Below, piece by piece: positions 30,481 to 61,371 of a stretch of DNA of 64,000 nucleotides (position 1 is the stretch's first letter; every line of letters begins with the position of its first letter). The stretch lies in the NCBI GenBank assembly GCA_913063265.1, contig CAJXZG010000019.1, forward strand, positions 1 through 64,000, written 5' to 3'. Below the pieces are notes generated by a model that did no database searches, was not told the origin of the DNA, and saw only the letters and a list, made by a program, of their open reading frames with translations. The position numbers and the translations under genes are program-made. The stretch is from an uncultured Prolixibacteraceae bacterium. GTDB taxonomy: Bacteria > Bacteroidota > Bacteroidia > Bacteroidales > Prolixibacteraceae.

Positions 30481-30495
30481 TTTTGGGAACTATTC
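30481..30495 (-). promoter_or_regulatory. Candidate pectin-regulon site 1 upstream of the HTCS gene
   Basis: On the minus strand this reads GAATAGTTCCCAAAA, a weaker member of the TA-N-TTCCCA family found before other pectin genes. It lies about 170 bp before the HTCS start. Confidence 0.4.
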
Positions 30496-30566
30496 TTTTC
30501 TTCATCCGGTTCCCCGGGGAAAGGAGATTTTACTTCAACACCAAAATAATTAAGCTGTAACATTTT

Positions 30567-30583
30567 GCGGGTATATTTTCCCA
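30567..30583 (+). promoter_or_regulatory. Candidate pectin-regulon site 2 upstream of the HTCS gene
   Basis: GCGGGTATATTTTCCCA differs at two positions from each of the copies upstream of the 736-aa beta-helix gene (52866-52882) and the GH105 gene (61355-61371). It ends 24 bp before the -33 box of the HTCS promoter, a good position for an activator and consistent with autoregulation. Confidence 0.6.
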
Positions 30584-30607
30584 GAACATTTGTTAACAAA
30601 CAATTTA

Positions 30608-30638
30608 TTTGCTCGTATATTTAAAATCTTTATTATTG
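30608..30638 (+). promoter_or_regulatory. Bacteroidota-type promoter of the HTCS gene
   Basis: TTTG (30608-30611), exactly 19 nt, then TATTATTG (30631-30638), a 7/8 match to TAnnTTTG. It lies inside the extra leader implied by a TTG start at 30590, which supports the ATG at 30662 as the true start. Confidence 0.6.
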
Positions 30639-30661
30639 TAACAGAAGTTAAAACTAAGTTC

Positions 30662-33600
30662 ATGGCATATTTGAATCATATTCAGCGTATAATATCTTTG
30701 CTGCTTTTAGGGCTTTTGCTTCAAATTCCTTTTAATTTAATTGCGCAATCGGAACTAAGTTTTGATATTTTCACACTTGAGAACGGACTCCCAAATAACA
30801 GAATTCAATGTATTTACCAGGATAACAAAGGGTGGATATGGGCTGGTACCAACCAGGGATTAAGCCGATTTGACGGGTATAGATTTATTAATTTTTTACC
30901 CAATGAAAATGATACTAACAGCTTGCAGGGAAATCTGGTTAGGGTAATCAAAGAAGACCATAAGGGTAATCTGTTGATAGGTACAGAAACAGGTGGATTA
31001 AATGTTTTTAACCGTGAAACTGAAACTTTTTCTTTCCCCTTAAAAAACTTGCAGGAATTTAATTTTAAGGAAATCTCTGTCAACGACATTGTGATTAACC
31101 AAAATAATGATTTATGGCTGGCAACGGATTTTAATATTTTAAAACTTGACACACTTCATCAGGTAAGTATTTTAAATTATAAAAACAAGGAAATTTCACT
31201 TTCAGGCAGGTTTGTGCGTACTATTAAACTGGATTCTTCCAAACAGCTTTGGATAGGCACCAACGATGGTTTGTTTTTATATGATTGTAACACTGAATTT
31301 TTACAATATATAGATCTGCCGTTTAAAGATGAATCCAACAAAGAAATCTGGGAAATATTTATAGATACAGATGGTATGGTATGGATTGGAACCTACTCAT
31401 CCGGCCTTTTTACAATTGATCCAATAAACAAACAAACAACCAGAATTAACCTTGTCCCTGAGTTACCAAGAACCGAAACTGTGAGAGCCATTTCAAAAGG
31501 TAATTTTGGTGAATACTGGATTGGCACAAGAGGAGGCCTGTATTCATATTCAAAAGAAAAAGGTGTTACCGGTTTTTTTAGAAATAATCTTCAGGAACCT
31601 AAAAGTCTCTCAAATAATTCTGTTTTGTCGGTTTTTCAGGATATTAATGGTGAAACATGGATTGGAACCAGAAACGGACTTAATCTTCTCGCCAAAAGTA
31701 AACAGGTATTTAAAAACTTTACTGCACTTCCGGGAAACGATAAGTATTTAAACAGCGGAACAATCTGGGCATTCTGGATTGACCCAGAAGAAAATATCTG
31801 GATTGGAACAGAAGACGGAGGAATTAATATTTACAATAAGCAAACCAATAATTACAGATATATTACTTCGGATGGACCAAAAAACTACGCTTTGTCAAAA
31901 AACTGTGTGAAGAAATTTTTACACGATGGAAAAGGAAACCTATGGGTTGGTACTTATATGGGGGGTATTGATGTAATCAATTTAAAAACAGGATTGATAA
32001 AAAACTACAGTCGGAATCCGGATAAGAAAAACAGTTTGAGTGATAACCGTATCTGGGATATGTGTTTGGATAGTCAAGGTAATATCTGGATTGTAACTTC
32101 CCAAGGGCTAAATAAATTTGATGCCGGTACCCAATCGTTTATTCATTTAATTCAGGTAAATGGGAATGAACGAATTTTATGGATTGAGCCGGATTCAAAG
32201 GGAAATCTCTGGATGGGAAGCTCAGATGAGGTTATTGTGTTTAATCCGGAATCCAATCAAATTAAACGATTTTTTGAGCATTCCCGCACCATGTTTGAAG
32301 ATTCGCATAAAGAGATATGGATTACTACAGACGATAAAGGTATTGCCAGATATTCAGTGGAAAATGGTCCGTTGGAGTATTTTACAGAATCAAACGGACT
32401 TGTAAACAACCAGACTTTATGTATTCTGGAAGATAACTTCCAAAACCTCTGGGTTAGTACATCTAATGGCTTGTCAAAATTTAATCCCCGAAATCAGACC
32501 TTCCAAAATTTTACAGTAAAAGAAGGTTTAAGTAATAACCAGTTTTCATATGGTGCCTCTTACAAAACAAAAGATGGTGAATTACTATTTGGCACTATTT
32601 CGGGTTTTAATAAATTCAATCCTGACGACATAAAAGAAGAGGATGCTAACGTTCCTTTAGTTTTTACTGATTTTAGGGTATTTAATAAAAAAGTAGAAAT
32701 CGGTTCGGGGAAAAAAAAACTTTTGGAAAAAAGTATAAGTGAAACTAAACTGCTTGTTCTCGACTATAATCAGAATGTATTTACTTTGGAATTTGCGGCT
32801 TTAAACTACGTTAACACTGCCAATAATATATACACATACAAACTTGAGGGATTTAATTCTAATTGGGTGGAGCCGAGTAAAGATCGAACAGCCACCTACA
32901 CTAACTTAAATCCGGGAGACTATGTGTTTATGGTAAAACGTGTAATTCCCGGAAGCAATGTCGATTCGGAAATTTTAGAATTAAATATTAAAATATTACC
33001 TCCATTTTGGAAAACCAACTGGTTTTTAGCCCTCATCTTTTTTATCATATTAATATTAATATATGTATTGGTTCAGTTTTTTATTAATCGTGAAAAAATT
33101 AAAAGTCAGCTTGTCTTAGAACGTGTAAAAGCCAGAAAATTACACGAGTTAGACATGATGAAATTAAAGTTTTTCACCAATATTTCGCATGAAATCAGAA
33201 CTCCTTTAACTCTCATTTTGGGGCCACTTGAAAAGATGCTGAATAATAACTCGGTTAAAAAAGACGATTTGGAAAACCTGAAGTTAATGCATAGAAATGC
33301 CAAAAACCTGGATAAATTAATAAACCAGCTGCTTGATTTCAGAAAACTTCAGTCTGGTAATTTAAAACTTAATTTAACCGAAGCAGATATTGTTGCTTTT
33401 TTAAAAAATATTGTGGATTCTTTCCACGACTTTGCCGAAGAAAAACAAGTTAACTTAAGTTTTAACACCCTGAAAAAAACCCTGTTCATTTCTTTCGATC
33501 CGGATAAAATTGAAAAAATAATGAATAACCTTTTATCCAATGCTTTTAAGTTTACAGAGCCAAATGATTCCATATCAGTAAACGTTTCTGTTGTTTTTGA

Positions 33601-34744
33601 TTCAGAGGATGAAGAATTTTCAGACCAACAAATTGAGAAACGATTTGTGGAAATTTATATCAAGGATACAGGAAGAGGAATCTCTACTGAAAATGTAAAT
33701 AAAATATTTACACGTTTTTTCCAAAGTAATAAAAAGGATACAGAATCGGGAGCCGGAATCGGATTGGCGTTGGTAAACGATTTGGTTAAACTTCACATGG
33801 GAAAAATTAATGTAACAAGCAAATTAGGAAAAGGTACAAAATTTACAATCAGAATCCCTGTTGACGTAACAAATGAAAAAAGTGTTGAAAAATCAGAAAT
33901 CCGAAATAAAATTCAAAATGGTGAAAACTTGTTAGGAGAAAAAATTCGATTTAGACCGGACGATAGCTTGCATTCAAAAATAATGTTAATTGTTGAAGAT
34001 AATTCCGATGTCAGACAATTTATAAAAGGGCATTTCGATACCATTTACACTATTTATGAAGCTTCTAACGGAGAAAAGGGATGGGAAAAGGCGCTTAAAT
34101 TAGTACCTGATATTATTATCAGTGATATTTTAATGCCAAAACTAAACGGTTATGACCTCTGTAAAAAAATTAAAAATGATGAAAGAACTTCTCATATTCC
34201 CGTCATTTTGTTAACTGCCATGCATTCAAAAGAGCACGAACTTAAAGGACTTACAACCGGAGCAGATGACTATATTACCAAACCTTTTGATTTATCTGTA
34301 CTACAGGCAAAAGTTGAAAATATTCTTTCTATTCGTGAATCATTAAAAGAGAGATACACCGATACAGTTGTTCTGGAGCCAACAAATGTTGTTCTTTCTT
34401 CTCCTGACGAACGATTTTTACAAAAAGCAATGGATGTTGTAGAAGCCAATATTTCGGATGGAAATTTAGATATTGAAAGTTTTGCAAAAAAAGTAGGTGT
34501 AAGCAGAATGCAATTGTACAGGAAGCTACATGCACTAACCAATATGACAGTCAAAGAATTTATCCGACATATCAGGTTAAAAAGAGCAGCTCAGTTACTG
34601 ATTCAAAAAAAGCTTAATGTTTCAGAAGTTGCATACGAAGTTGGTTTTAACGACTTGTCCCATTTTAGAAAATGTTTTAAACAGGAATTTGGAATGAGTG
34701 CAACAGAATACATCACAAATGCCAAGGAAAAATCAAATACATAA
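30662..34744 (+). CDS. Hybrid two-component system sensor/regulator (HTCS) of the pectin PUL
   Basis: 1360 aa from the ATG at 30662, which gives a signal peptide and lies just after the promoter; a TTG at 30590 is less likely. The periplasmic part has Reg_prop beta-propeller repeats (about 35-670, many WIGT motifs) and a Y_Y_Y domain (about 700-770). Then come a membrane segment (about 785-807), a HisKA domain with phospho-His about 843 (NISHEIRTPL), an HATPase domain (NLLSNAFKFTE, DTGRGIS, GAGIGLALV), a receiver domain with phospho-Asp about 1155 (SDILMPKLNGYD) and an AraC-type HTH (about 1260-1355). It senses imported pectic oligosaccharides and activates the PUL. SusC and SusD lie directly downstream. 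Confidence 0.95.
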   Translation: MAYLNHIQRIISLLLLGLLLQIPFNLIAQSELSFDIFTLENGLPNNRIQCIYQDNKGWIWAGTNQGLSRFDGYRFINFLPNENDTNSLQGNLVRVIKEDHKGNLLIGTETGGLNVFNRETETFSFPLKNLQEFNFKEISVNDIVINQNNDLWLATDFNILKLDTLHQVSILNYKNKEISLSGRFVRTIKLDSSKQLWIGTNDGLFLYDCNTEFLQYIDLPFKDESNKEIWEIFIDTDGMVWIGTYSSGLFTIDPINKQTTRINLVPELPRTETVRAISKGNFGEYWIGTRGGLYSYSKEKGVTGFFRNNLQEPKSLSNNSVLSVFQDINGETWIGTRNGLNLLAKSKQVFKNFTALPGNDKYLNSGTIWAFWIDPEENIWIGTEDGGINIYNKQTNNYRYITSDGPKNYALSKNCVKKFLHDGKGNLWVGTYMGGIDVINLKTGLIKNYSRNPDKKNSLSDNRIWDMCLDSQGNIWIVTSQGLNKFDAGTQSFIHLIQVNGNERILWIEPDSKGNLWMGSSDEVIVFNPESNQIKRFFEHSRTMFEDSHKEIWITTDDKGIARYSVENGPLEYFTESNGLVNNQTLCILEDNFQNLWVSTSNGLSKFNPRNQTFQNFTVKEGLSNNQFSYGASYKTKDGELLFGTISGFNKFNPDDIKEEDANVPLVFTDFRVFNKKVEIGSGKKKLLEKSISETKLLVLDYNQNVFTLEFAALNYVNTANNIYTYKLEGFNSNWVEPSKDRTATYTNLNPGDYVFMVKRVIPGSNVDSEILELNIKILPPFWKTNWFLALIFFIILILIYVLVQFFINREKIKSQLVLERVKARKLHELDMMKLKFFTNISHEIRTPLTLILGPLEKMLNNNSVKKDDLENLKLMHRNAKNLDKLINQLLDFRKLQSGNLKLNLTEADIVAFLKNIVDSFHDFAEEKQVNLSFNTLKKTLFISFDPDKIEKIMNNLLSNAFKFTEPNDSISVNVSVVFDSEDEEFSDQQIEKRFVEIYIKDTGRGISTENVNKIFTRFFQSNKKDTESGAGIGLALVNDLVKLHMGKINVTSKLGKGTKFTIRIPVDVTNEKSVEKSEIRNKIQNGENLLGEKIRFRPDDSLHSKIMLIVEDNSDVRQFIKGHFDTIYTIYEASNGEKGWEKALKLVPDIIISDILMPKLNGYDLCKKIKNDERTSHIPVILLTAMHSKEHELKGLTTGADDYITKPFDLSVLQAKVENILSIRESLKERYTDTVVLEPTNVVLSSPDERFLQKAMDVVEANISDGNLDIESFAKKVGVSRMQLYRKLHALTNMTVKEFIRHIRLKRAAQLLIQKKLNVSEVAYEVGFNDLSHFRKCFKQEFGMSATEYITNAKEKSNT

Positions 34745-34806: not shown

Positions 34807-34866
34807 CCCGCTTTTTGGGAATTATTTCACGTTCGGGGAAAGGAAGCAATATTATTTGGGAAAATA
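34807..34866 (-). promoter_or_regulatory. Two candidate pectin-regulon sites upstream of the small ORF and SusC
   Basis: Read on the minus strand, site b1 (34807-34826) is AATAATTCCCAAAAAGCGGG and site b2 (34857-34866, flanked by A/T) is TATTTTCCCA, the core of the motif seen before the HTCS, beta-helix and GH105 genes. They sit 60-120 bp before the 35-aa ORF. The remaining parts of the 336-bp gap between HTCS and SusC (34745-35080) hold no clear terminator or promoter. Confidence 0.5.
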
Positions 34867-34925
34867 TTTTATTTAAAAATACCTGCATAATTTAACTTGC
34901 CATTGATTTTATATCACTTTTCCCT

Positions 34926-35080: not shown

Positions 35081-38000
35081 ATGGCATGTTTTAATGTAAA
35101 AGACCAAAAGCCCCGTGAGATTTCATATATCTCAAAGGTGCTCATGTTGTCTGTTGTCCAGTTATTTTTTGTATTTTCTGTTTTTGCTCAAACAATTACA
35201 GTTAAAGGAAAAGTAACTGACGCGCAAACCGGTGAAGAACTCCCGGGAGTTAATGTTGTTATTAAAGGAACAACCAATGGTACGGTAACTCAGGTTGATG
35301 GCTCTTACCAGATTGAAGCATCATCTGATGCAATTCTGACGTATTCTTTTATTGGATACAAAGCACAGGAAATTTCAGTAAATGGTCAATCCGAAATTCT
35401 CGTCGCACTTGAATTTGAAACGACTCAATTGGATGAAGTAGTTGCAATTGGATACGGTACCGTGAAAAAACGCGATATTACAGGCTCTGTATCTTCTATC
35501 AAGGGTGAAAAATTACAGGCAATCCCCGTTGCAAGTGCTGAGCAGGCACTAAGCGGACAACTGGCAGGTGTACAGGTGTTGGCTACTGAAGGATCTCCTG
35601 ATGCTGAAATAAAAATTCGTGTACGTGGAGGAGGTTCAATTACACAGGACAATTCACCATTATTCATTGTTGATGGATTTCCGGTAAATTCCATTTCTGA
35701 CATCGCACCTTCTAACATTGAATCAATTGATGTTTTAAAAGATGCATCATCAACAGCAATTTATGGTTCGAGAGGAGCAAATGGTGTTATCATAGTTACA
35801 ACCAAAAGTGGTACAGAAGGAAAAATTTCTGTTGGATATAATGCCTATCTCGGATTCAAAAAAATTGCAAATACACTGGATGTTCTGGACCCATATGATT
35901 ATGTGAACTGGCAATATGAATATGCCATTTTAGATAATGGTATGGATGATTTAAGCTCTTATGAAAAATATTTCGGAAGTTACAAAGACATCGATTTATA
36001 CAAAAATCAACCCGGGAATAATTGGCAGGAACAGGTTTATGGCAGAACCGGTGAAGTTTTTAATCACGACCTGAGTATTATGGGAGGAACAGAAAAAATG
36101 AGGTATGCTTTCACCTACGCCCATATTTATGATAAAGCAATTATGATTGGTTCGAATTTTAATCGTGACAATGTTTCGCTAAAATTAAACAGCAATCCTA
36201 ATGATAAAGTGGAACTGGCATTTTCAGTTCGTTATGCTGACACCAAAATCAGCGGTGGTGGTGCAAACGAACAAAATGAAGTTTCTTCTTCAGATTCAAG
36301 ATTAAAACACAGTGTAACCTATTCGCCTATACCACTTTCGGGTTTAACCACTGACGATACCGATGAAGAAATTGCAAGTTATCTTGTTAATCCAATTATT
36401 GCAACAGCAGATAACGATCGCACTCAGCACAAAAAGAACTTTAACATGGCAGGTAGCTTTTCGTGGGAGATTATCAATAATTTAAAATTTAAAACCGATT
36501 TTGGACTGGATAATTATTATTATAACGATAATCGTTTTTACGGACTAACTACCTACTATGTAAAAAATGCTCCTTCAGCTGAAAATCAGGACCTCCCGGC
36601 AGTAAGATTAAGAGACAGAAAACAGGAAAGATTCAGAAATACGAATACCTTAAATTACAGCTTTAACGAAATGTTAAGCGAAGACCATCAACTATCTCTT
36701 CTTGTCGGTCAGGAAATGGTAGAGACCAAAACCAATGAACTGACTTCTATTGTTCATGGATTTCCTGAATTGTTTACTTCTGAGGAAGCATTTAAGCTAA
36801 CCACCCAGGGTGTGGCACACTCAACAGATAATTACTTTAGTCCTGATGATAAATTACTTTCATTCTTTGGCCGTGTAAATTACGACTTCAGAAGTAAATA
36901 CCTATTATCTGCGACATTCAGGGCTGACGGTTCGAGTAAATTTTCAAAAGATAATAAATGGGGTTATTTTCCATCTGCAGCTTTTGCATGGAGAATTTCC
37001 CAGGAAAGTTTTATGGAAAATTCTTCAAACTGGCTCGATGACCTTAAACTGAGGTTAAGTTACGGAACCGCAGGTAACAATAAGATTCCGGCCGGACAAA
37101 TGACGCAATCATTTGAATCACGTTCCACTTCGTGGATGAACGGTTTCGAGAGTTACTGGTCAGCCTCTAAAAGAATGGCCAACCCTGATTTAAAATGGGA
37201 AACAACTTTTACCCGAAATATTGGAGTCGATTTTGCACTTTTTAGATCCAGATTAAATGGTAGCATGGAGTTCTACCTGAACAACACAAAAGATTTGTTA
37301 ATTGAATTCCCGGTTGCGGGAACAGGTTACGATACTCAGTTCAGAAATATGGGTGAAACAGAAAACAAAGGATTTGAGCTTACTGTAAACTGGGTAGCAA
37401 TTAATAAGGAAGATTTTGGATTGGATTTCAATTTCAATATTGGATTTAATAAAAACAAAATTAAATCTCTGGGTATTATGGATGATTTTGGTGCTTCAAC
37501 AGGATGGGCATCAACTGAAATCGGGGATGACTTTTGGATTGCAACCGGAGGATCGGTTGGGCAAATGTATGGCTATTTGTCTGACGGAAGATATGAAGTT
37601 TCAGATTTTGAAGGATATGATGAAACCTCAGGTGAATGGATTTTACGAGAAGGAGTAGCAGATAACTCAGGCATTATAGGAGATTTAAGACCCGGAATGC
37701 TGAAGCTTAAAAATATTGTAGGCGACGACAATATGGTAACCATTGATGACCGTACAATAATTGGTGATGCAAATCCGGTAAATACAGGAGGTTTTACTAT
37801 CAATGGTAGAGTGTATGGTTTCGACCTTTCTGCATTTTTTAACTGGAGTTTAGGTAACGATATCTATAATGCCAATAAAATCGAATATACAACTTCCAGC
37901 CAACGTTACCAGTATCGCAACATGATAACAATGATGGCAGACGGCACAAGATGGACCAACATCGACAAAGAAACGGGAACTTTAATAAATGACCCTGAAA

Positions 38001-38329
38001 AATTAAGTTCACTAAATGCGAACGCTACCATGTGGTCGCCTTACATGAGTAAGTATGTATTTAGCGACTGGGCAGTTGAAGATGGATCATTTCTTAGGCT
38101 AAGCACATTAACGCTGGGCTACACACTTCCTTCAAGTCTTATGGATAAACCGAATATTCAGAATCTGAGATTTTACGTTACAGGTTATAATCTGTTTATA
38201 CTTACAAACTATACAGGATTTGATCCTGAAGTATCTACAAGAAGAAAAACGGCATTGACACCAGGTGTTGACTATTCTGCATACCCTAGAAGCAGACAAA
38301 TTGTATTTGGATTAAATCTTAATTTTTAA
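35081..38329 (+). CDS. SusC/RagA-type TonB-dependent transporter (pectin PUL)
   Basis: 1082 aa. An extended N-terminus precedes the signal sequence, which ends near residue 37 (VFAQ). Then come the carboxypeptidase-regulatory-like domain (about 40-125, GKVTDAQTGEELPGVNVVIKG in part), LDEVVAIGYG, the plug with the SusC signature VLKDASSTAIYGSRGANGV and the barrel ending in GLNLNF. It should import pectic oligosaccharides across the outer membrane. SusD starts 5 bp after its stop, so the two are co-expressed. It shows no lesion and is clearly distinct from the region A SusC. Confidence 0.95.
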   Translation: MACFNVKDQKPREISYISKVLMLSVVQLFFVFSVFAQTITVKGKVTDAQTGEELPGVNVVIKGTTNGTVTQVDGSYQIEASSDAILTYSFIGYKAQEISVNGQSEILVALEFETTQLDEVVAIGYGTVKKRDITGSVSSIKGEKLQAIPVASAEQALSGQLAGVQVLATEGSPDAEIKIRVRGGGSITQDNSPLFIVDGFPVNSISDIAPSNIESIDVLKDASSTAIYGSRGANGVIIVTTKSGTEGKISVGYNAYLGFKKIANTLDVLDPYDYVNWQYEYAILDNGMDDLSSYEKYFGSYKDIDLYKNQPGNNWQEQVYGRTGEVFNHDLSIMGGTEKMRYAFTYAHIYDKAIMIGSNFNRDNVSLKLNSNPNDKVELAFSVRYADTKISGGGANEQNEVSSSDSRLKHSVTYSPIPLSGLTTDDTDEEIASYLVNPIIATADNDRTQHKKNFNMAGSFSWEIINNLKFKTDFGLDNYYYNDNRFYGLTTYYVKNAPSAENQDLPAVRLRDRKQERFRNTNTLNYSFNEMLSEDHQLSLLVGQEMVETKTNELTSIVHGFPELFTSEEAFKLTTQGVAHSTDNYFSPDDKLLSFFGRVNYDFRSKYLLSATFRADGSSKFSKDNKWGYFPSAAFAWRISQESFMENSSNWLDDLKLRLSYGTAGNNKIPAGQMTQSFESRSTSWMNGFESYWSASKRMANPDLKWETTFTRNIGVDFALFRSRLNGSMEFYLNNTKDLLIEFPVAGTGYDTQFRNMGETENKGFELTVNWVAINKEDFGLDFNFNIGFNKNKIKSLGIMDDFGASTGWASTEIGDDFWIATGGSVGQMYGYLSDGRYEVSDFEGYDETSGEWILREGVADNSGIIGDLRPGMLKLKNIVGDDNMVTIDDRTIIGDANPVNTGGFTINGRVYGFDLSAFFNWSLGNDIYNANKIEYTTSSQRYQYRNMITMMADGTRWTNIDKETGTLINDPEKLSSLNANATMWSPYMSKYVFSDWAVEDGSFLRLSTLTLGYTLPSSLMDKPNIQNLRFYVTGYNLFILTNYTGFDPEVSTRRKTALTPGVDYSAYPRSRQIVFGLNLNF

Positions 38330-38334
38330 AGAAA

Positions 38335-40116
38335 ATGAAAAAATTAATATATATAACAATTGTATTTTTCGCAGGAATACTGGTTTCATGCGAAGATTAT
38401 CTTGAAGCACCAACCAAGTCTTCACTGGATGAATCAGTAATTTTCTCAACACCCGATCTTGCAAAAGGAGCAGTTGATGGAATTAAAGTTTCATTTGCTG
38501 AAACCAATTCATACAGAGGTAGATTTTTACCGTATTACGGTATGAATACTGATATTGAATGGTACAACTCTTCTGAGAATGTGGGCGATGGCAAAGCAGA
38601 TTTGTCAGTTTATAAATCTACACCCAGTAACAACCAAATGAATTCAACAAATAATGCATGGGCAAAGATGTATGAGGGTATCGAAAGAGCTAATATCTGT
38701 ATTAAAGGTTTACGTGCCTATGGTAATCCAGAACCAGGAACTGAGTTAGGATATTTGCTTGGTGAAGCATTAACATTAAGAGCTGTGTATTATTCCGATC
38801 TGCTTAAAACATGGGGAGATGTTCCTGCGCGTTTTGAACCTATCACTACAGAAACTTTATATTTACCAAAATCGAGTCGTGATGTAATTTATAAACAATT
38901 GATTGACGACCTCGAAGAAGCATCAACCCTGGTTCCCTGGCCAAATGAATCAGCAGCTACACAAAGTGTAGAGCGTGTAAGTAAAGCATTTACAAAAGGA
39001 TTGCGGGCAAGACTCTGTTTGGCGGCAAGTGGTTATTCTCAATATCCCGACGGAATTCGTCGAAGCAGCGATCCTGAACTATCAGTTAGCACTTTATACC
39101 CAATCGCCAGACAGGAATGTCTGGATATTATCAACAGTAATTCGTGTAAACTGGAAAATGCATTTGAAACAGTCTTTATGAAAAACTGCCAGGATAATAT
39201 AAATGCAGGGAGTGAATCGATTTGGGAAATACCATTCTCGGCGGGTAGAGGAAGAATGTTATTTACATTTGCTATCAGACATAACAGCGTCGATCAATAT
39301 ACAAGTCAGGCAAAAGGAGGAAATGCAGGGCCTGTACCCTACCTTTTTTACGATTATGATGTAAAAGATACCAGAAGAGATGTTAGCGTTGTACCATATG
39401 AATGGGGAAAAGCTGTTGATGGTTTTGCTCAGCAGGAAATGTTAAGTCTTGAGCGTTGGAGCTTTGGTAAGTTTCGCTACGAATGGATGAATCGAATTGT
39501 TACTTCCAGTAATGACGATGGAGTAAATAAATTGTACATGCGTTATGCTGAGGTCATATTAATGCTCGCCGAAATTGAAAATGAACTAAATGGATCATCA
39601 GCTGCAGCACCTTATTTAAAAATGATTCGTCAAAGAGCATTTAATCCTGCAGACTGGCCTGAAAAAGTTGATGCATACATCAATTCCATTTCAACAAAAG
39701 AAGCCATGTTTGATGCAATTGTTGAAGAACATAAATTTGAATTTTGTGGGGAAATGGTTCGTAAACAAGCATTAATTCGCTGGAATCTTTTAAAAACCAA
39801 ACTGGATGAGGCAAAATCAAAAATGTACACCCTAAGGGAAAGAACAGGTGAATATGCCGACGTACCAGAGAAAGTATATTACAAATATGCAGAAGACGGT
39901 GAATCCTTAATTATATATGGTTTAAATCGTGGAGAAACAGAAGACAAATCTGCAGAATACGACTACAATACAACATGGGTTGCACCGGAAGAACTGGAAG
40001 ATGAAAAAATTGAATCTATTTATGCTCAAAATCCTGATGAATGGCAATTCTGGCCTATATGGCAGGTTTTTCTAGATGCGAGTAATGGTAAATTGGTAAA
40101 TGACTACGGTTACTAA
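38335..40116 (+). CDS. SusD/RagB-type glycan-binding lipoprotein (pectin PUL)
   Basis: 593 aa with a lipoprotein signal (LVSC, Cys about 19). The N-terminal TPR-like helices include ALTLRAVYYSDLLKTWGDVPAR, and the C-terminal half includes LYMRYAEVILMLAEIENELNG, the usual SusD signature, and an aromatic-rich end. It starts 5 bp after SusC and is followed 16 bp later by the beta-helix lipoprotein. It caps the SusC transporter and binds pectic oligosaccharides at the outer surface. Confidence 0.94.
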   Translation: MKKLIYITIVFFAGILVSCEDYLEAPTKSSLDESVIFSTPDLAKGAVDGIKVSFAETNSYRGRFLPYYGMNTDIEWYNSSENVGDGKADLSVYKSTPSNNQMNSTNNAWAKMYEGIERANICIKGLRAYGNPEPGTELGYLLGEALTLRAVYYSDLLKTWGDVPARFEPITTETLYLPKSSRDVIYKQLIDDLEEASTLVPWPNESAATQSVERVSKAFTKGLRARLCLAASGYSQYPDGIRRSSDPELSVSTLYPIARQECLDIINSNSCKLENAFETVFMKNCQDNINAGSESIWEIPFSAGRGRMLFTFAIRHNSVDQYTSQAKGGNAGPVPYLFYDYDVKDTRRDVSVVPYEWGKAVDGFAQQEMLSLERWSFGKFRYEWMNRIVTSSNDDGVNKLYMRYAEVILMLAEIENELNGSSAAAPYLKMIRQRAFNPADWPEKVDAYINSISTKEAMFDAIVEEHKFEFCGEMVRKQALIRWNLLKTKLDEAKSKMYTLRERTGEYADVPEKVYYKYAEDGESLIIYGLNRGETEDKSAEYDYNTTWVAPEELEDEKIESIYAQNPDEWQFWPIWQVFLDASNGKLVNDYGY

Positions 40117-40132
40117 AAAAAGAAAATGTCTT

Positions 40133-41737: not shown

Positions 41738-41800
41738 GGATAACGTAAAAAGGGTTTGAATGGAAATAATTTCATAATAAGTTTTAGTGGTTAATAAAAG

Positions 41801-41840
41801 CTCCGGATACAATGTTTTGTATCCGGGAGTTTTTATTTTT
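41801..41840 (+). terminator. Intrinsic terminator after the SusC-SusD-lipoprotein unit
   Basis: CTCCGGATACAA pairs with TTGTATCCGGGAG (one bulged G) around a 3-4 nt loop and is followed by TTTTTATTTTT. It separates the nutrient-binding trio from the enzyme operon that begins 39 bp later, so read-through or a separate promoter must feed the enzymes. Confidence 0.85.
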
Positions 41841-41879
41841 CACAAATCACAAAAGAAAGAAAATTATTGTATCAATAAC

Positions 41880-43256: not shown

Positions 43257-43258
43257 AT

Positions 43259-52713: not shown

Positions 52714-52865
52714 AAACTCTAATTTTAATTAATTACTTATTGATTTTGATAAATACCATTTGTTAAATACAATGAATAAAATTACTGCATAAAGTATAGT
52801 TATAAAAATGCAAAATTCTCAAAAGGGGGGTACATTTTCTCCTTACAGTGCATGTGTATCAAAAA

Positions 52866-52882
52866 GCGGGATTATTTTCCCA
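52866..52882 (+). promoter_or_regulatory. Candidate pectin-regulon site upstream of the beta-helix gene
   Basis: GCGGGATTATTTTCCCA, containing the dyad GGGA-N6-TCCC. It differs by one base from the copy before the GH105 gene. The rest of the gap (52714-52999, 286 bp) has only A/T-rich sequence and no clear -7 box. Confidence 0.6.
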
Positions 52883-54170: not shown

Positions 54171-54434
54171 ACGTGAGTTCAGGATAAGACATCGTCACAG
54201 CTTTAGAAAATTTTTACAGAGACAAACCAAATTTAAGAAGGACTATCGGGATAATTCAATAAAATTTGGAGCAGTATATGTGAAAATTTTCAAAGCCTTG
54301 TAAAGGAAAGTCCAAAGCACATCATCTTTGAGCTATAAAATCTTAAAAATAACCCGTTATTCCCGGATATTTTATAACTCAAATCTGAAGCACTTATGAC
54401 TTTCTGTGATTGATGGCTTATCCCGAATTCACGT
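54171..54434. mobile_element. 264-bp MITE-like element with 7-bp target-site duplication
   Basis: The ends are imperfect inverted repeats: left ACGTGAGTTCAGGATAAG, right (read inward on the minus strand) ACGTGAATTCGGGATAAG, with similarity continuing for about a dozen further bases. The direct repeat TATTTTA flanks both ends (54164-54170 and 54435-54441), as expected for a target-site duplication. The interior has no credible coding sequence, so it is a non-autonomous element or a small IS remnant. Family not assigned. It fills most of the 441-bp gap 53993-54433; the remaining 53993-54163 holds nothing recognised. Confidence 0.8.
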
Positions 54435-57400
54435 TATTTTACAAATACTTTCTCTGTTTTTGAGCCTTCAATTGATTGTGTTTTTATAATCCAGATTCCG
54501 CTTTTAAAATTAAAATCTGTATCAACATCTGTTTCAAACATTTTTACTTTACTTCCGGAAATACTGTATATACTTACCCAGGTATGTGCCTGAACATTTT
54601 TTAAATAAATTCTGTTTCCACTTGAGTAAATATTTACATTCGATTCAAAACCAAACTGATAAACCGAAGTGCTTGGATCCATAGCAATCAAATCAGGAAG
54701 TGGGTCCCACCCGTCATTTCCTTTTGTAAAATTGAAAGTGGTAATTTCGGTTCCATCGTTTAGTTTCGGTTCAGATAAAACTGTCGACCATGAAGCCCTG
54801 TCGGATTGGTTGTTCTCTCCCGATTCTTCAACAGTACCGAATTCATACATTTTAGTTGACTCCCCACCTAAACTGCTTTTCCAACCTTCAGGAGCAATTA
54901 AAGATTTTCCTTCAGAACCCGGATAATCCGATATTCCGATTGAAGTATTATAAAACACAACCTCACTTGTTGTAGCCTGCCAGGGACGTCCAAAATAACC
55001 GGGTTTGGCTTTGTGTTGGGAAGCTGTTTCGATGCCGGGTTGGGTTGATTTTATAAAACACTCATACATCAGATAACCACGTCCACTGCTTTGCTGAGCA
55101 GCTGTTATATACGATGCATCGCTACTTGCGTCACTGGTGTTCATTACCAAATCCGACTTATAAAATACTGCAGTCATTCCGCCAAAAATATAATCTACGG
55201 CACCCATCATCGCTCCTTTATAAATTACAGTTCGTATTCCTGAACTTCCGTAGAATGAATCCTGACGGCCGATAACACGACATTTGTACAAAATTGCTTT
55301 ATCAGCACTTCCGGTAAATGCAATGGCTGCAGCACGTTCTACAAAACTTCTGTCCTGCACTGAGGTATTTCCATAGTCAACCGGACGTTCTCCTTTGCCG
55401 CCCGATTCCCACATTACCACTTTGTCTTGTGATTCTTTCATGGATATATACTGATTGAATGAGTTTTCAAAGATTATATCGTAAGCTTCAAAACCTGAAG
55501 CATTAACAACAACAGTAGCATTCCAATAGGAACCATTGCTTGTTCCCGCTCCTTTGTTTTTATATGAATAATAACCGTTTTCTTTATTTACCCTTAAAAT
55601 ATCGGCATTCCACTTTTGGTTGTTGTCCATACTAAAATAATCATAACCATGTCCGTAATACGAGGTAATACGAACGGCATTGTCATCTATATGAACACCC
55701 TCGTTTTTTATTCCGATTCCCGGAGTATTTGCTGCATTTTTAAGGGTAATATTTGCTGCATTAATTACAAGCATCTCCTCATAATTCCCCGGATCAATCA
55801 TAACAGTTACTCTTTCATTTTCGTTACGTACCATTTTGTCGATGGCATTCAGTGCTTCGTTTAAAGTTTTGAACTCCTTATCTATTCCAACATATAGTTT
55901 TGCTTTGTATTCAACAGAAGCTCCGGTTGAAATATTGGTAAAGTAAGTAGTTCCGGCACCTGAATTTATTGTAATCGTTATATATCCTTTTTCAGTACCT
56001 GTATATGCATATTCTGCAAATTCCAGCTTACTTGTGCTTCCGCTTGATGTGGTATAAGTGTCTGTCCCTTCAATAGTAAAATCAGCAGAATAATAAAATG
56101 CAATATTTACTTTATCACCCGGATTAACCGGTACCTGAATGCTTGCTTCCGGTTTGGCAGATAAATGCCCTTTTGCCATTTCATTGTATACATTCCCGGT
56201 AAATAACAAACCTTTGTAATTCGGAGTTCCATTTTCAATGACTTTATCATCAAAAGGCCAGTTGTTCACTGCCTTGAACGAAAGTGTTTTTGAAGTTGCT
56301 TCATCTGCTATAGTTAAGTTGGATGTGAGTCCCATTTCTACCGGATATTGATCTAATCCATCGGATAAAATAGCGTACGTGCCGTTTCGAAGTTTCACCT
56401 GATCAATCGATTCAAAACCATATGTGTAACCTTCTTCGTGCAGGTTGGTAAACGTTAAATTTAGTTTTGCTTTTTGCTCTTCAGTTAATCCTTCCGTAAT
56501 AAACGTAACATTATAAACAGGTTTTGCCATAAAATCTAAATCGATAGTGGTATCGCCAGCTTCTATAGTAATTTTATCTTCGGGAAGGTAAAAATCATTA
56601 ATTCCGTTTGCTGAAATGGTGTATTCACAATTGGGTTCCAATTCAACAGCATAAGATGAGTCTTCAATATTGATAACCGGTTCGGGAACAAAAATCTTAT
56701 TGGCGGCAGAATCGGGAGAAAATGCCAGACTAAGATTAGACAAGTGCATTCCCAGGCCTGTTATGGTTCCTGTTACCGTATAAAGCTCCACCCGAATGAT
56801 TGAAATGTTAAAAGTGGTAGTGGTGTCGTTAACTTCCAGTTCAGTATTACTACTAATTACATAACCGTTGGCATTTGACAGACTCAGGCTGTATGAGAAA
56901 CCTGTTGGCAAATCAACTGAATAAGCATTTTCTGAAACGACTGAAGTCCATTTTTTACCTTCGTTATTTGTAAATACAATTGCATATCCTTCAGGAATTC
57001 CAGGTGCTTCTGATTCATCCACTGTGCCACTTACAGTTGCCCGTGCTGCATCTTTTCGGTAAATACGAAAATAACTGGGTTTATCCTGGTCATCGAAAAT
57101 ATGGTAGGTACCTGCATTTTTAGCTACAAAAACCAGGGTGTCAACTTCTGGTCCCAACGGCAACTGGTCGGTCTGAACTTCAGGATCAGCTACGTATTCA
57201 AAATTTAATCGTCCACTACCATTCTGAGATAAACCGATTACTGTCACTTCATCATCTTCACTAAGTGTAAGGCTCATAAAACGTCCGGTATTCGAAGCTG
57301 AGTTCACATAAACGCGACCGGTATACAAATCTTTTCCTTTTGAAATGTTTTCATCATAACGGGTTAGCTTGGTATTTGTAGTTCTTAACCTGTCGTTATG

Positions 57401-59941
57401 TCCGCCAATCCAGCTTAAAACTCCCGCCGTAAAACCCGGCAGCACATTCCCGCTGCTTCCCGTTGTAATGGATTCGTCGTACCATGAATTGATTATTTCT
57501 TCATTTAAACGGTTTTTATAGATAGAAGTATCCAACTGTTCAGCACCAAAATCCCAAACATCAATTTTGCCCGATGAAGGTTCAATAATTGCTGCATTTT
57601 CAACCACCAACCCGTGAATATAAACAGAACCACCCGAAACCAGGTGAGCTGAAATAACTCCGGCCGGTCCCGTATATGAATAACTTACCGCATGTGCATC
57701 GTCGCCACCATTGTTTTCCGCAGCTATGGTCCCCAATGGATTGCCCTCTCCATCAAGCAGATTAAAAACAGATTCATCGGCACTGTAGGTGCAAGTGATA
57801 AAGGTTATGGTTGCATTTCCTGCAACTGTAATGTGAATTGAATTTTTATCGTAAATAACCACACCATGAGTAGCATCGTGATACCAGAATTCTTTTCCAC
57901 CACCATTGCTCAATTCAACCAATCCATCGTTGGTTATAAATGTGGTATATTTTATCTCGGTATTTTGCGGCATTTCACTACCATCAGCAAAACTATAGGT
58001 ATAAGTTTTACCCGGCTCTGCCTCTGTCACAAGGCTACTGTCGTTAATTTTTAGTTTATATGTTTTTGGATCTGTAGAGTCATCAGAGAAATAAATATTT
58101 ATCGTACTTCCTTCTACTGCTGTTGAATCGATGTCACCCGAAAGAACCGGAGTAAATGAAGACAATTCCTGGCCTGCAAGGTCAATACTCAGTGAAGCTT
58201 CTTTATCGGTCGCGCTAATAACTTTTCCTTTGCTTGCAGTAACTACAGCACTTTCACCGGATGCCGAACCAGTGGTTATATTGATTGAATCGCCGTTTAT
58301 TACTAATGTTCCCGATTTTTGTTTCCACTCCCTTATTTTAACCGCACCGGGAATAACTTCAATTAAGGGTAAATATACATCAGAACCACTGCCTGTTGCG
58401 GTAAATATTAAGGTATCGGCGCTGCCACTATAAGCAAATTCAAATTTATCGCTTAAATCATTTACAACTTTTGTAGATTGTACAGAGGGATCAAGTGCAG
58501 TACCATCTGAAGTTTCTCCACTCATGGAAAGGCTTGAATGTTTAGAACCCAAAAACCTTAACATACAACTGCCATTTACTGCAATTTTTATTTTAGAATC
58601 CACTTTCATATCCATGCCATACGTTGTACCATGATGGTTATAGTTTCCACCCAGTTGTAACGAACCATCGGCACTTTGTCCGGCTGCTATTATTGTTCCA
58701 TCCCTGAAATCATAAGCTATCGGAGGATCAAGCGGAATTACATTAAGCGATGGAAGATATACATCAGAACCACTTCCGGTAGCAGTAAACAACAAAGTAT
58801 CTTCAAAACCATAATATATGAATTCATAAGTGTCGCTCAAATCGTTTGTTACCTTTGTGGATTGTTCTGCAGGTTCAAGAGCAGTTCCGTCAGAAGTTTC
58901 TCCACTCATGGATAAACTTGAGTGTTTTGATCCCAAAAAACTTACTTTACAACTGCCGTCAACAGCAATTTTAATTGTAGCATCTGCTTTCATATTCAAA
59001 CCATAGCTTGTTCCATGATGACCATAATTACCTCCAAGCATTAGTTTTGTATCGTCACTTTGTCCGTTTGCTATAATTGTACCATCTCTAAAATCATAAC
59101 CGGTTACCGGATCGGATGGAATAATCTGAACCAATGGAAGATAAACATCGGATCCATCTCCTTTAGCTGTAAAAATAAGAGTATCAGCACTTCCATTGTA
59201 TGAGAATTCGTATGTGTCACTTAAATCATTGGTAACTTTTGTTGATTGCTCTGCGGGATCAAGAGAAGTACCACCTGAAGTTTTACCACTCATTGAAAGA
59301 CTGGAGTGTTTTGAACCAAGAAAACGTACAACACAACTTCCACTTACAGCAAGTTTTATTTCAGAATCTACTTTCATATCAAGGCCGTAAGTTGTTCCAT
59401 GATGATTATAATTACCATTTAATTTAAGTGAACCATCAGAACTTTGACCTGCTGCGATTATTGTTCCGTCTCTAAAATCGTAATTTAAGGTAGAGGATAT
59501 TACTTTAACTAAAGGAAGATAAACATCAGAACCATCTCCAATTGCTGTAAATATCAAAGTATCCGCACCACCGATGTACGAAAATTCATAGGTATCGCTT
59601 AAATCGTTAATAACTTTGCTTGATTGTTCTGCAGGTTCGAGCGCTGATCCATCAGATGTTTCTCCGCTCATGGATAAACTAGAATGCTTAGAACCTAAAA
59701 ACTGAACTGTACAACTACCATCTACGGCAATTTTAATCTTAGAATCTACTTTCATATCCAGGCCGTAAGTTGTTCCATGATGATTAAAATTACCACCTAA
59801 TAAAAGCTTTCCATCATCGCTTTGTCCGGCCGCAATAATTACTCCATCTCTAAAATCATAAATAATTGTATCAGCTGATTGTCCGAACAAAAATGTACCA
59901 AAGAAAAAGGTACAAACTAAAAGTATAGCACTTCGTTTCAT
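54434..59941 (-). CDS. Giant secreted CE8 pectinesterase with four tandem N-terminal modules and T9SS tail
   Basis: 1835 aa. Signal peptide (about 1-20) followed by four near-identical modules of about 126 residues (starting about 28, 154, 282 and 410, each opening YDFRDG and containing FLGSKHSSLSMSG), then further beta-sandwich and Ig-like segments (about 535-1390), a CE8 domain (about 1390-1740) and a T9SS tail (about 1760-1835). CE8 catalytic residues are present in RQDSFYG, VDYIFGG and FGRPW. The Gln of the first oxyanion-hole motif (QAVAVR in the short CE8) appears replaced by Arg-Ala. It probably demethylates pectin outside the cell while binding it through many modules. The terminal A of its TAA is the last base of the MITE. 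Confidence 0.9.
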   Translation of the reverse strand: MKRSAILLVCTFFFGTFLFGQSADTIIYDFRDGVIIAAGQSDDGKLLLGGNFNHHGTTYGLDMKVDSKIKIAVDGSCTVQFLGSKHSSLSMSGETSDGSALEPAEQSSKVINDLSDTYEFSYIGGADTLIFTAIGDGSDVYLPLVKVISSTLNYDFRDGTIIAAGQSSDGSLKLNGNYNHHGTTYGLDMKVDSEIKLAVSGSCVVRFLGSKHSSLSMSGKTSGGTSLDPAEQSTKVTNDLSDTYEFSYNGSADTLIFTAKGDGSDVYLPLVQIIPSDPVTGYDFRDGTIIANGQSDDTKLMLGGNYGHHGTSYGLNMKADATIKIAVDGSCKVSFLGSKHSSLSMSGETSDGTALEPAEQSTKVTNDLSDTYEFIYYGFEDTLLFTATGSGSDVYLPSLNVIPLDPPIAYDFRDGTIIAAGQSADGSLQLGGNYNHHGTTYGMDMKVDSKIKIAVNGSCMLRFLGSKHSSLSMSGETSDGTALDPSVQSTKVVNDLSDKFEFAYSGSADTLIFTATGSGSDVYLPLIEVIPGAVKIREWKQKSGTLVINGDSINITTGSASGESAVVTASKGKVISATDKEASLSIDLAGQELSSFTPVLSGDIDSTAVEGSTINIYFSDDSTDPKTYKLKINDSSLVTEAEPGKTYTYSFADGSEMPQNTEIKYTTFITNDGLVELSNGGGKEFWYHDATHGVVIYDKNSIHITVAGNATITFITCTYSADESVFNLLDGEGNPLGTIAAENNGGDDAHAVSYSYTGPAGVISAHLVSGGSVYIHGLVVENAAIIEPSSGKIDVWDFGAEQLDTSIYKNRLNEEIINSWYDESITTGSSGNVLPGFTAGVLSWIGGHNDRLRTTNTKLTRYDENISKGKDLYTGRVYVNSASNTGRFMSLTLSEDDEVTVIGLSQNGSGRLNFEYVADPEVQTDQLPLGPEVDTLVFVAKNAGTYHIFDDQDKPSYFRIYRKDAARATVSGTVDESEAPGIPEGYAIVFTNNEGKKWTSVVSENAYSVDLPTGFSYSLSLSNANGYVISSNTELEVNDTTTTFNISIIRVELYTVTGTITGLGMHLSNLSLAFSPDSAANKIFVPEPVINIEDSSYAVELEPNCEYTISANGINDFYLPEDKITIEAGDTTIDLDFMAKPVYNVTFITEGLTEEQKAKLNLTFTNLHEEGYTYGFESIDQVKLRNGTYAILSDGLDQYPVEMGLTSNLTIADEATSKTLSFKAVNNWPFDDKVIENGTPNYKGLLFTGNVYNEMAKGHLSAKPEASIQVPVNPGDKVNIAFYYSADFTIEGTDTYTTSSGSTSKLEFAEYAYTGTEKGYITITINSGAGTTYFTNISTGASVEYKAKLYVGIDKEFKTLNEALNAIDKMVRNENERVTVMIDPGNYEEMLVINAANITLKNAANTPGIGIKNEGVHIDDNAVRITSYYGHGYDYFSMDNNQKWNADILRVNKENGYYSYKNKGAGTSNGSYWNATVVVNASGFEAYDIIFENSFNQYISMKESQDKVVMWESGGKGERPVDYGNTSVQDRSFVERAAAIAFTGSADKAILYKCRVIGRQDSFYGSSGIRTVIYKGAMMGAVDYIFGGMTAVFYKSDLVMNTSDASSDASYITAAQQSSGRGYLMYECFIKSTQPGIETASQHKAKPGYFGRPWQATTSEVVFYNTSIGISDYPGSEGKSLIAPEGWKSSLGGESTKMYEFGTVEESGENNQSDRASWSTVLSEPKLNDGTEITTFNFTKGNDGWDPLPDLIAMDPSTSVYQFGFESNVNIYSSGNRIYLKNVQAHTWVSIYSISGSKVKMFETDVDTDFNFKSGIWIIKTQSIEGSKTEKVFVK
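58337..59860 (-). repeat. Four tandem ~380-bp coding repeats in the giant CE8 gene
   Basis: Each unit encodes one YDFRDG...DVYLPL module (126-128 codons). Phrases such as GSKHSSLSMSG and NDLSDTYEF recur with little change, and long DNA stretches are nearly identical, so copy number is likely to vary by recombination and to be error-prone in assembly. Confidence 0.9.
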
Positions 59942-60053
59942 AAGTATAAATTTTAAATTTTCTGCCTGTTTTTACAATTTGAAAATTACAACAGACTCAT
60001 TTAAATGGATATGAAATTAATATCAAAGGAAGTGGTAAGAAGTATCAAATTAA

Positions 60054-60067
60054 GGACTTACTTCCCA
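60054..60067 (+). promoter_or_regulatory. Candidate pectin-regulon site upstream of the giant CE8 gene
   Basis: GGACTTACTTCCCA keeps the GGA-N6-TCC dyad and the TTCCCA core of the regulon motif. AAAATACGGGA follows, as in the SusC upstream site. It lies about 113 bp before the CE8 start. Confidence 0.45.
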
Positions 60068-60118
60068 AAATACGGGAAAATGAACAATATGGTAAATATG
60101 TAATATATGGAAATTAAA

Positions 60119-61285
60119 TTATCTGCCCAACTCAATTGCTGCCAGAATAAGCGGAGCAACTCCTTTCTGGTCGTTATCAACAATTTTTTCAGAAATGTAA
60201 TATTCGTAATCTCCTTCACGGTAAGGATTTCCACCCAATCCGCAGGCTCCGCATGTATTTTTTAGTACGGCATATCCATCTTCATCCAGTTCAACAAGAT
60301 TTTCTACCAGACTGTCAAAAGCTTTATGGGCTATACTGAGGTATTTTTCAGGAAGCCATTCATTTTTTGCTCCTTTGGCAAAAGCATAAATAAACATTGC
60401 CGATCCTGACGCTTCCAGGTAATTGCCTTCTTCTCCTCCCATATCCAAAACCTGATACCAGAGTCCGGTTTTATTATCCTGAACTTTTATTATTGCCTTG
60501 CTCAGATTCTGGAGAATGGAAATAATCTTTTCCCTTTCAGGATGATCCTCCGGCAGGTATTCCAAAACATCAACCATCGCCATCATATACCAACCCGTAG
60601 CCCGGCTCCAAAAGTGTTTTGACTGGCCGGTTTCAGGATTGCACCAGCGTTGTTCGCGGCTTTCATCCCAGGCATGATAAACCAATCCGGTCTTTTTGTC
60701 CAACGTTCTTTTATATACTTCCTGAAGCTGAAATGTTACCTCATCAAACCATTGTGGCTGATTGAATTCCAAAGCATAGCGTGTTAAAAAGGGAGAAGCC
60801 ATATATAAACCATCCAGCCACATCTGGTAAGGATATACTTTCTTATGCCAGTAACCTCCGGAATTGGTTCGTGGTTGATTTTCCATCTGATTAACCAGTA
60901 TTTCAATTGCATTTTTATATTTAGGTTCACCGGTTTCCAGATATAAAGTTATCATACTGTTTCCGGGCCTTACCCTGTCGATGTTATAATCCGACAGTTT
61001 GTGCCCGCTTATTTTTCCTTCTTCTTTAAGGAAATAATCGATATAGTCCTTCATGTATTTTCCATAACCGGCATCTACATTTTTTAATTTGTAAATGGCA
61101 TCACCCAAAAAGGCATAATCATATTCATACTTGGGTTTTTCTCGTAAATAATAGATTAGGCTGTCTGCCTCATGCATAACTGCATTGGCAAATTTTACCG
61201 ACCATGTTTTTTCTTTTTCGACAGGCTTATTAATTCCTGAACTGGTTATCAGCAACAGAATCACAGATAAAAACAATCCATTCAT
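60119..61285 (-). CDS. GH105 unsaturated rhamnogalacturonyl/galacturonyl hydrolase
   Basis: 388 aa with a short signal peptide (about 1-17). An (alpha/alpha)6 barrel with the GH88/GH105 hallmark YPYQMWLDGLYMA (catalytic Asp about 158), HFWSRATGWYMMAMVDVL, LWYQVLD and SGSAMFIYA. It hydrolyses the 4,5-unsaturated galacturonic acid left at oligomer ends by the PL1 lyases of this locus, most likely in the periplasm. It has its own -7 box and a regulator motif 70 bp upstream. Confidence 0.93.
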   Translation of the reverse strand: MNGLFLSVILLLITSSGINKPVEKEKTWSVKFANAVMHEADSLIYYLREKPKYEYDYAFLGDAIYKLKNVDAGYGKYMKDYIDYFLKEEGKISGHKLSDYNIDRVRPGNSMITLYLETGEPKYKNAIEILVNQMENQPRTNSGGYWHKKVYPYQMWLDGLYMASPFLTRYALEFNQPQWFDEVTFQLQEVYKRTLDKKTGLVYHAWDESREQRWCNPETGQSKHFWSRATGWYMMAMVDVLEYLPEDHPEREKIISILQNLSKAIIKVQDNKTGLWYQVLDMGGEEGNYLEASGSAMFIYAFAKGAKNEWLPEKYLSIAHKAFDSLVENLVELDEDGYAVLKNTCGACGLGGNPYREGDYEYYISEKIVDNDQKGVAPLILAAIELGR

Positions 61286-61306
61286 ATTGATAATTTTGAA
61301 TGTGTC

Positions 61307-61314
61307 AAAGTTAA
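61307..61314 (-). promoter_or_regulatory. -7 box TAACTTTG of the GH105 gene
   Basis: On the minus strand TAACTTTG is a perfect TAnnTTTG match 21 bp before the GH105 start. No TTTG lies at the standard spacing (the nearest is 25 bp away), so an activator bound at 61355-61371 may substitute. Confidence 0.6.
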
Positions 61315-61354
61315 TTTGAGCTTTTTAAATAGTGAAAACAAATCGTAACACAAT

Positions 61355-61371
61355 GCGGGACTATTTTCCCA
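61355..61371 (+). promoter_or_regulatory. Candidate pectin-regulon site upstream of the GH105 gene
   Basis: GCGGGACTATTTTCCCA with the perfect dyad GGGA-N6-TCCC. It is 40 bp upstream of the GH105 -7 box, a spacing similar to that at the HTCS promoter (47 bp). Confidence 0.65.

Follow-up and report, generated by a model that had tools for sequence, protein, structure and literature searches.

Which DNA signal do the pectin genes of an uncultured Prolixibacteraceae bacterium share, and which protein reads it? The stretch analysed here, referred to as the window, comprises the first 64,000 nucleotides of contig CAJXZG010000019.1 (assembly GCA_913063265.1) and encodes a hybrid two-component system (HTCS) regulator. 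A preliminary description of this DNA had pointed to nearly identical 17-bp sites upstream of the HTCS gene and of two genes that it labelled beta-helix and GH105 (labels kept here as names), with weaker relatives before a giant CE8 gene, before SusC and once more before the HTCS gene, and had proposed them as HTCS operators that include a site of positive autoregulation. Our analysis indicates that the motif is very probably one operator unit of the pectin HTCS encoded at 30662-34744, judging from its sequence context across genomes, and that the operator is best read as a direct-repeat array of two to four units with a period of about 21 bp rather than as a stand-alone dyad.

The motif in the whole assembly

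The three 17-mer sites lie where they had been placed, at 30567-30583, 52866-52882 and 61355-61371, and no open reading frame (ORF) of at least 90 aa overlaps any of them. Searching the whole 5,487,558-base (5.49 Mb) assembly with GCGGGNNTATTTTCCCA revealed three exact matches, all intergenic and all inside the window. At up to two mismatches, the 17-mer gave 21 matches compared to 7 for a reversed control pattern; 17 of the remaining 18 overlap ORFs no shorter than 90 aa; the sole exception, a site on contig C82 (C82:15849, L016), precedes a DUF4861 gene. Extension of the motif by a trailing TGNTACA resulted in the 28-mer TGGGAANATANNCCCNCNNNNTGNTACA, which at up to three mismatches matched four places genome-wide, namely the three window sites and the C82 site, with none for the control. 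Neither the exact nor the extended motif thus occurs equally often in unrelated promoters or coding DNA, and the glucan half of the window, from which the motif had been said to be absent, contains no match at up to three mismatches. In the window only, the 17-mer at up to three mismatches gave 5 matches against 2.07 expected, with at least 5 in 6 of 100 shuffles, a count that is not impressive on its own; the significance of the motif derives from the exact matches, the whole-genome searches and the relatives, and not from this count. Genome-wide, the motif is real and far above chance.

Arrays beside HTCS orthologs

The HTCS carries the Pfam domains Reg_prop, Y_Y_Y, HisKA, HATPase_c, Response_reg and HTH_18 in one chain, making it a full AraC-type HTCS, and contains SHIP, a form of the S/C-H-I-P receiver motif; its gene adjoins a SusC/SusD pair plus substrate enzymes. 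In a search of 149 genomes including its own, 93 had a match at E <=1e-150, many of them to paralogs only, and its own genome had a single one. As orthologs we took the best 29 places outside the own genome (L023-L051, 48-65% identity; the next listed match had 43%), with Draconibacterium, which also belongs to the Prolixibacteraceae, Mariniphaga and Maribellus among the named relatives that carry them. L052, from a second collection, joined the locus counts, while the own locus and L028, a near-copy of L027, were excluded from GGGAA spacing counts and matrix building.

Just after the HTCS orthologs, pairs of GGGAA were found 22 bp apart in 17 of 29 loci, 41 bp apart in 12 and 19 bp apart in 10, compared to means of 0.02-0.03 for the same spacings in dinucleotide shuffles of these promoters. 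A triple array (18-21 + 22 bp) was present in 19 of 31 HTCS loci, own locus included, and is thus conserved across orthologous loci. The first recognised gene behind these 19 arrays was SusC in 11 cases, a GH105-family gene in six and none of the query genes in two (L027 and L028; one of 18 when L028 is excluded). The six GH105-family genes (L034, L036, L039, L042, L046 and L048; 42-50% identical to the window GH105) stand in the place of SusC, indicating that the first gene of the target operon changed while the array was kept.

A CCC box lies about one helical turn from the GGGA boxes of the ortholog promoters, and GGGA plus CCC make up the dyad of the preliminary description. An imperfect inverted repeat therefore does exist, but it sits within one unit of the direct repeat. 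Because the promoters after HTCS orthologs conserve direct repeats, we rejected the 17-mer as the whole operator; a palindromic operator of a dimeric repressor or activator likewise does not fit this conserved arrangement. According to the available text of PMC3878776, the operators predicted for 16 HTCSs of Bacteroides thetaiotaomicron, pectin ones included, are direct repeats whose period averages 21 bp, and the repeat of about 21 bp between the sites described here agrees with that period. The sites fit this known kind of HTCS operator, a likeness of sequence arrangement that appears well supported.

From the ortholog promoters we built a matrix of 63 units (21 loci, own genome excluded), in which the four GGGA columns are fixed by construction since units were picked by GGGA, and in which the CCC columns are far less conserved than this selected GGGA. 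Its six top positions in the window were 52881(-), 34817(+), 30582(-), 6153(-, coding), 60066(-) and 61370(-); five of the six are intergenic and coincide with the sites noted before, in a window with an intergenic share of 10.1%. The comparison of orthologous polysaccharide utilization loci, suggested as a check of the operator idea, thus revealed direct-repeat arrays beside HTCS orthologs and a matrix that recovers the window sites.

Across the 149 genomes, the triple array occurred in 20, with one match each, compared to 7 for the reversed control. It was found in 16 of 32 genomes with an HTCS ortholog (a total that also takes in the partial HTCS matches in G083 and G074) versus 4 of 117 others. 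Comparison of coordinates showed that all 16 arrays in HTCS genomes adjoin the HTCS gene, just after it. Three of the four arrays in genomes without an ortholog overlap ORFs, and the fourth (L174) lies within a repeat.

Promoter spacing and candidate target genes

Bacteroidetes promoters carry a -7 element with the consensus TAnnTTTG and a -33 element. In all 18 triple-array promoters (own locus in, L028 out), a TANNTT starts 35 bp (4 promoters) or 36 bp (14 promoters) past the first G of the last GGGA. With its start 35-36 bp before the -7 box, the last unit would overlap the -33 region. The candidate sites, -7 boxes and genes of the window are as follows.

30556..30583, minus strand: operator-like site upstream of the HTCS gene, TGGGAAAATATACCCGC then TGTTACA, reversed relative to the gene
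30616..30623, plus strand: candidate -7 box of the HTCS gene, TATATTTA, 47 bp past the GGG of the reversed site; weak, offset not conserved
30662..34744, plus strand: HTCS, a sensor/kinase/receiver/AraC-type regulator of 1360 aa (from Pfam and translation), proposed binder
34807..34873, plus strand: candidate SusC operator, a CCCGC half unit and GGGAA units at 34817, 34836 and 34858 (19 and 22 bp apart)
34893..34900, plus strand: candidate -7 box of the SusC operon, TAACTTGC, 35 bp past the start of the last unit
35081..50322, plus strand: presumed target operon (from gene order and strand) encoding SusC, SusD, a DUF4957/DUF5123 protein, a 489-aa protein without Pfam match, a Pectinesterase (CE8), GH28, a GDSL esterase, a protein with a T9SS-tail-like end (below cut-off) and a Pectate_lyase_4 protein
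52815..52882, minus strand: candidate beta-helix operator, four units with the first G at 52881, 52860, 52841 and 52820, the last three degenerate
52777..52784, minus strand: candidate -7 box of the beta-helix gene, TAATTTTA, 36 bp past the start of the last unit, invariant in three genomes
50503..52713, minus strand: beta-helix protein (DUF4957, DUF5123, T9SS tail), predicted target
60042..60067, minus strand: weaker candidate CE8 operator, GGGAAGTAAGTCC from 60066 and GATAC 20 bp further
54434..59941, minus strand: giant 1835-aa protein with a Pectinesterase domain, probable target
61344..61371, minus strand: candidate GH105 operator, units starting at 61370 (GGGAAAATAGTCCCGC) and 61349 (GTTAC)
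61306..61313, minus strand: candidate -7 box of the GH105 gene, TAACTTTG, 57 (= 21 + 36) bp past the first unit
60119..61285, minus strand: GH88/GH105-family gene (Pfam Glyco_hydro_88), predicted target

The same spacing recurs at the other targets. In the beta-helix promoters of the own genome and of L150 (G083) and L151 (G072), units start at 0, 21, 40 and 61 and TAATTTTA follows at 97 (61 + 36); the orthologs in G083 and G072, which belong to one other genus, share these unit offsets and carry the 17-mer without a mismatch. Before the window GH105 gene, unit two starts at 21 and is followed by the -7 box at 57, again 21 + 36. The sequence between the boxes varies across promoters, and the spacing stays constant. 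Before SusC, the weaker relatives do exist, but as three GGGAA units instead of two, and by matrix score alone they rank 2, 113 and 63 (34817, 34836 and 34858), so that only the first is high; units 2 and 3, like the degenerate units elsewhere, are recognised through spacing and conservation. The relative reported near 60054 before the CE8 gene holds up (GGGAA from 60066, minus strand, fifth-best position in the whole window). The one at 30481 (GGGAA at 30485) had to be given up at matrix rank 52.

To search more widely, we used a 27-mer derived from the known sites, which at up to two mismatches gave 21 matches in the 149 genomes compared to 2 for the reversed control. Four of these are in the own genome, five precede GH105 orthologs, two precede beta-helix orthologs and three lie upstream of HTCS orthologs; the others comprise one site before the L207 gene and six chance-like matches overlapping ORFs. 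The five GH105 orthologs (69-75% identical) were previously unseen and thus recovered unasked. Behind the L207 site (G003) lies an 871-aa ORF that has no Pfam match and a weak 25% tblastn match to a CE8 protein. A pattern of two units, the promoter spacing given above and TANNTTTG matched nine places in the 149 genomes, with none for the control: the GH105 genes of G000, G003, G005, G006, G008, G014, G029 and G036, and the DUF4861 gene on C82. With the spacing off by one base, the pattern had no match and its control had one. In a survey of GH105 loci covering 30 of 44 listed places, one per genome, sites at up to three mismatches were present in 8 of the 16 genomes that have an HTCS ortholog and in 1 of the 14 that do not (G029). 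Sites, spacing, conservation and co-occurrence with the HTCS are thereby directly established.

Several observations weigh against the motif being the operator unit of this HTCS. The Fisher p value for the co-occurrence of triple array and HTCS ortholog, 1.5e-9, is optimistic because the genomes are related and are not independent samples, and 12 of the 31 HTCS ortholog loci have no triple array. At the GH105 loci examined, 8 of the 16 HTCS genomes are without a good site, and G029 has a good one in a genome that carries the paralog HTCS2 and no ortholog of the window HTCS, so that a paralog may read similar sites. No -7 box was seen at the expected distance from the CE8 site. The two-unit-plus-promoter pattern was composed after its GH105 targets were known, and what its search adds is that nothing else matches in 149 genomes. 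Finally, the short 17-mer with one more base freed matched 106 of the 149 genomes at up to one mismatch, and we dropped it as a marker for being too noisy. HTCS co-occurrence, the matrix from other genomes, promoter geometry and the position before pectin genes nonetheless lend strong support to the motif as a candidate HTCS operator.

From this arrangement we infer binding, activation, ligand and the sign of any autoregulation as follows. One unit, approximately TTTTGGGAAAATANTCCCGC, would offer GGGAA and CCCG boxes, spaced by one helical turn, to the pair of helix-turn-helix motifs in a single AraC-type DNA-binding domain, and 2-4 such units would be repeated in the same direction every 19-22 bp or so, those lying downstream being often degenerate (TGATACA, GAGAA). 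Pectin fragments may activate the HTCS, whose phosphorylated form would occupy the array in dimeric form and bring RNA polymerase to the SusCD operon, to the beta-helix and GH105 genes and probably to the giant CE8 gene; the position of the last unit over -33 would suit a class II-like activator. A sixth target unit outside the window would be the DUF4861/GH88 cluster on contig C82, and the reversed unit at the HTCS gene may give autoregulation. A stricter grammar for HTCSs of this family, in which tandem units are phased at two helical turns, the last of them is fixed 36 bp from the -7 box, the number of units (2, 3 or 4) sets target strength and the reversed, class I-like unit provides positive feedback on the sensor, is a tentative idea that we regard as rather doubtful; if it were true, the dimer would extend into higher oligomers along the array.

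The general design is known from gut Bacteroides, and it is this set of sites with its fixed promoter spacing that is newly described. As far as the available text of PMC3878776 goes, HTCS_Rgu-1 and HTCS_Rgu-2 of B. thetaiotaomicron (BT4111/BT4124 and BT4178/BT4182) are likewise AraC-type HTCSs beside SusC/D in a pectin locus, with distant target genes and with direct-repeat operators (12-bp sites with a 9-bp spacer and 14-bp sites with a 6-bp spacer). Those are two-site repeats from a different bacterial family, whereas here each promoter has 2-4 units at a measured, constant distance from its -7 box, and the site at the sensor gene is reversed; this comparison concerns arrangement, the logos not having been compared letter by letter. 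BT4663 (heparin) and BT4124 share the architecture including the S/C-H-I-P receiver motif and a SusC promoter as target, and the accessible part of PMC11253607 reports that they bound the bt4662 and bt4114 promoters in electrophoretic mobility shift assays, whereas binding is predicted here. The literature searched on HTCS sites, regulons and autoregulation, covered mostly at the level of titles, showed no description of this motif, of HTCS-gene autoregulation, of arrays of 2-4 units linked at 36 bp to a -7 box, or of an HTCS gene preceded by a reversed site. In the papers combining 'hybrid two-component system' with 'autoregulat', the latter term concerns other regulators, to the extent of their available text.

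The HTCS operators that turned up in this partly accessible literature all come from Bacteroides, as predictions or as promoter fragments. With a set of sites of fixed spacing, HTCS targets can be predicted from sequence alone across an environmental family, and short fragments become available on which the activation of Bacteroidota promoters by a membrane-bound AraC-type regulator can be studied. The GH105 promoters of relatives, with and without HTCS, offer a ready natural comparison.

The site before the HTCS gene and alternative binders

Does the HTCS control its own gene? Among 30 ortholog loci (L050, being too short, was left out), five carry a site 5' to the HTCS gene, namely the own locus and those of G021 (weak, 5 mismatches), G003, G036 and G011, in each case reversed and 80-98 bp ahead of the chosen start codon. 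The other 25 loci had 7-9 mismatches to the 27-mer, which is the range of shuffles, with moderate matrix scores in L032 (forward, 13.8) and L043 (reversed, same place, 10.6). From the GGG of the site to the next TANNTT, distances were 47 (own), 35, 25 and 37 bp, approximately in helical-turn steps and not fixed. Positive autoregulation, as originally proposed, is a weaker claim than the operator itself: the site is reversed, is present in 5 of 30 loci and varies in its -7 distance, and its sign cannot be read from sequence. At MarA/SoxS/Rob promoters, which are also controlled by AraC-type factors, forward boxes overlap -35 (class II) and reversed ones lie further upstream (class I). This is an analogy only, as these are single marboxes of enterobacteria, with no direct-repeat array described in the available text of PMC12052159. 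Since reversed boxes upstream of -35 correspond to the MarA class I arrangement, activation of the HTCS gene by the reversed site is plausible by this analogy; repression or a divergent target could likewise account for it.

That the site is not autoregulatory, and serves or once served a divergent gene, is quite possible, though we lean against it. In each of the five loci concerned, the site faces opposite to the HTCS gene, and its divergent side in G036 is occupied by a SusC-like gene (54% identical). In the window, however, the gene upstream of the HTCS runs toward it, with no divergent gene of at least 120 aa; L194, L197 and L198 have no -7 box at 57 bp on the divergent side; and class I MarA promoters normally carry reverse-oriented boxes upstream of -35, according to the accessible part of PMC12052159.

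Could the paralog HTCS2 (about 36% identical, adjoining the HTCS in G008) be what chiefly binds GH105-type promoters, with a specificity that overlaps? We consider this unlikely. G029, with HTCS2 and a good GH105 site in the absence of a window-HTCS ortholog, favours it, as does the proposal of HTCS pairs with a common motif in Bacteroides (PMC3878776, available text). On the other side, the own genome has its single HTCS match at E <=1e-150, and in G002, G010, G025 and G030, which lack an HTCS ortholog, the first box at GH105 is altered (GTGAA, GGAAA) with the -7 box kept (TAGTTTTG at 57). Furthermore, SRMQLYRK and DLSHFRKCF, which we take to be the recognition-helix stretches of the HTCS AraC domain, are near-invariant across the 29 orthologs and differ in HTCS2 (G008, G029) as well as in the HTCS on C115, another HTCS of the own genome.

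Two side observations concern this paralog. In L242 (G008:C1:1515000-1531000), HTCS genes lie in tandem at 3694-7908 and 8572-12708; the second is the ortholog of the window HTCS, and the first, HTCS2, is 36% identical to it, with a similar gene near GH105 in G029. In the GH105 promoters of L214, L219, L220 and L221, from four genomes that lack the HTCS ortholog, the first box is a variant, GTGAATAGCTNCCCGC or GGAAAAATTTTCCCGC; ATAATACA is also present and the -7 box is unchanged, an arrangement that is possibly an HTCS2 operator.

It is very improbable that an altogether different regulator binds the motif, such as the stand-alone AraC-type protein encoded at 22956-23975 or a dimeric factor on the 17-bp dyad. 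The 17-mer is indeed an imperfect dyad (GGGA-N6-TCCC), and 6.7 kb separate the AraC-type gene from that of the HTCS. Against both kinds of binder, the array stands beside the HTCS in 16 genomes and its units form a direct repeat of fixed phase, as for the HTCSs in the available text of PMC3878776. The protein at 22956-23975 has relatives in 3 of 149 genomes at E <=1e-60, its own included, and was rejected as the binder; in eight of nine loci searched as HTCS-ortholog surroundings, its best match was the DNA-binding end of the HTCS itself (27-34%), and the ninth, a locus without HTCS, gave no match. That the likeness of the motifs reflects chance in AT-rich intergenic DNA, as the 5 window-only matches might suggest, or the shared descent of recently copied promoters is scarcely credible, given that the controlled exact and long-pattern searches exceed chance, that these searches did not show such arrays to be equally frequent in unrelated promoters of these genomes, and that the spacing is constant among promoters whose inter-box sequence is not.

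The sixth regulon candidate on C82 (L108, G000:C82:8000-25158) encodes two DUF4861 proteins, a 647-aa protein without Pfam match and a GH88-family protein, and its neighbours are an apiosidase-like gene, a sugar isomerase, a two-gene transketolase and an FGGY kinase; in the loci of three relatives, GH105 is immediately followed by a DUF4861 gene. In the giant protein at 54434-59941, the Pfam match is restricted to residues 1534-1741 (Pectinesterase). Upstream of the HTCS gene, the ORFs at 27998-29668 and 29816-30430 (within 27998-30430) match positions 8-178 and 236-408 of PF14905 in succession, as if one outer-membrane beta-barrel gene had been split.

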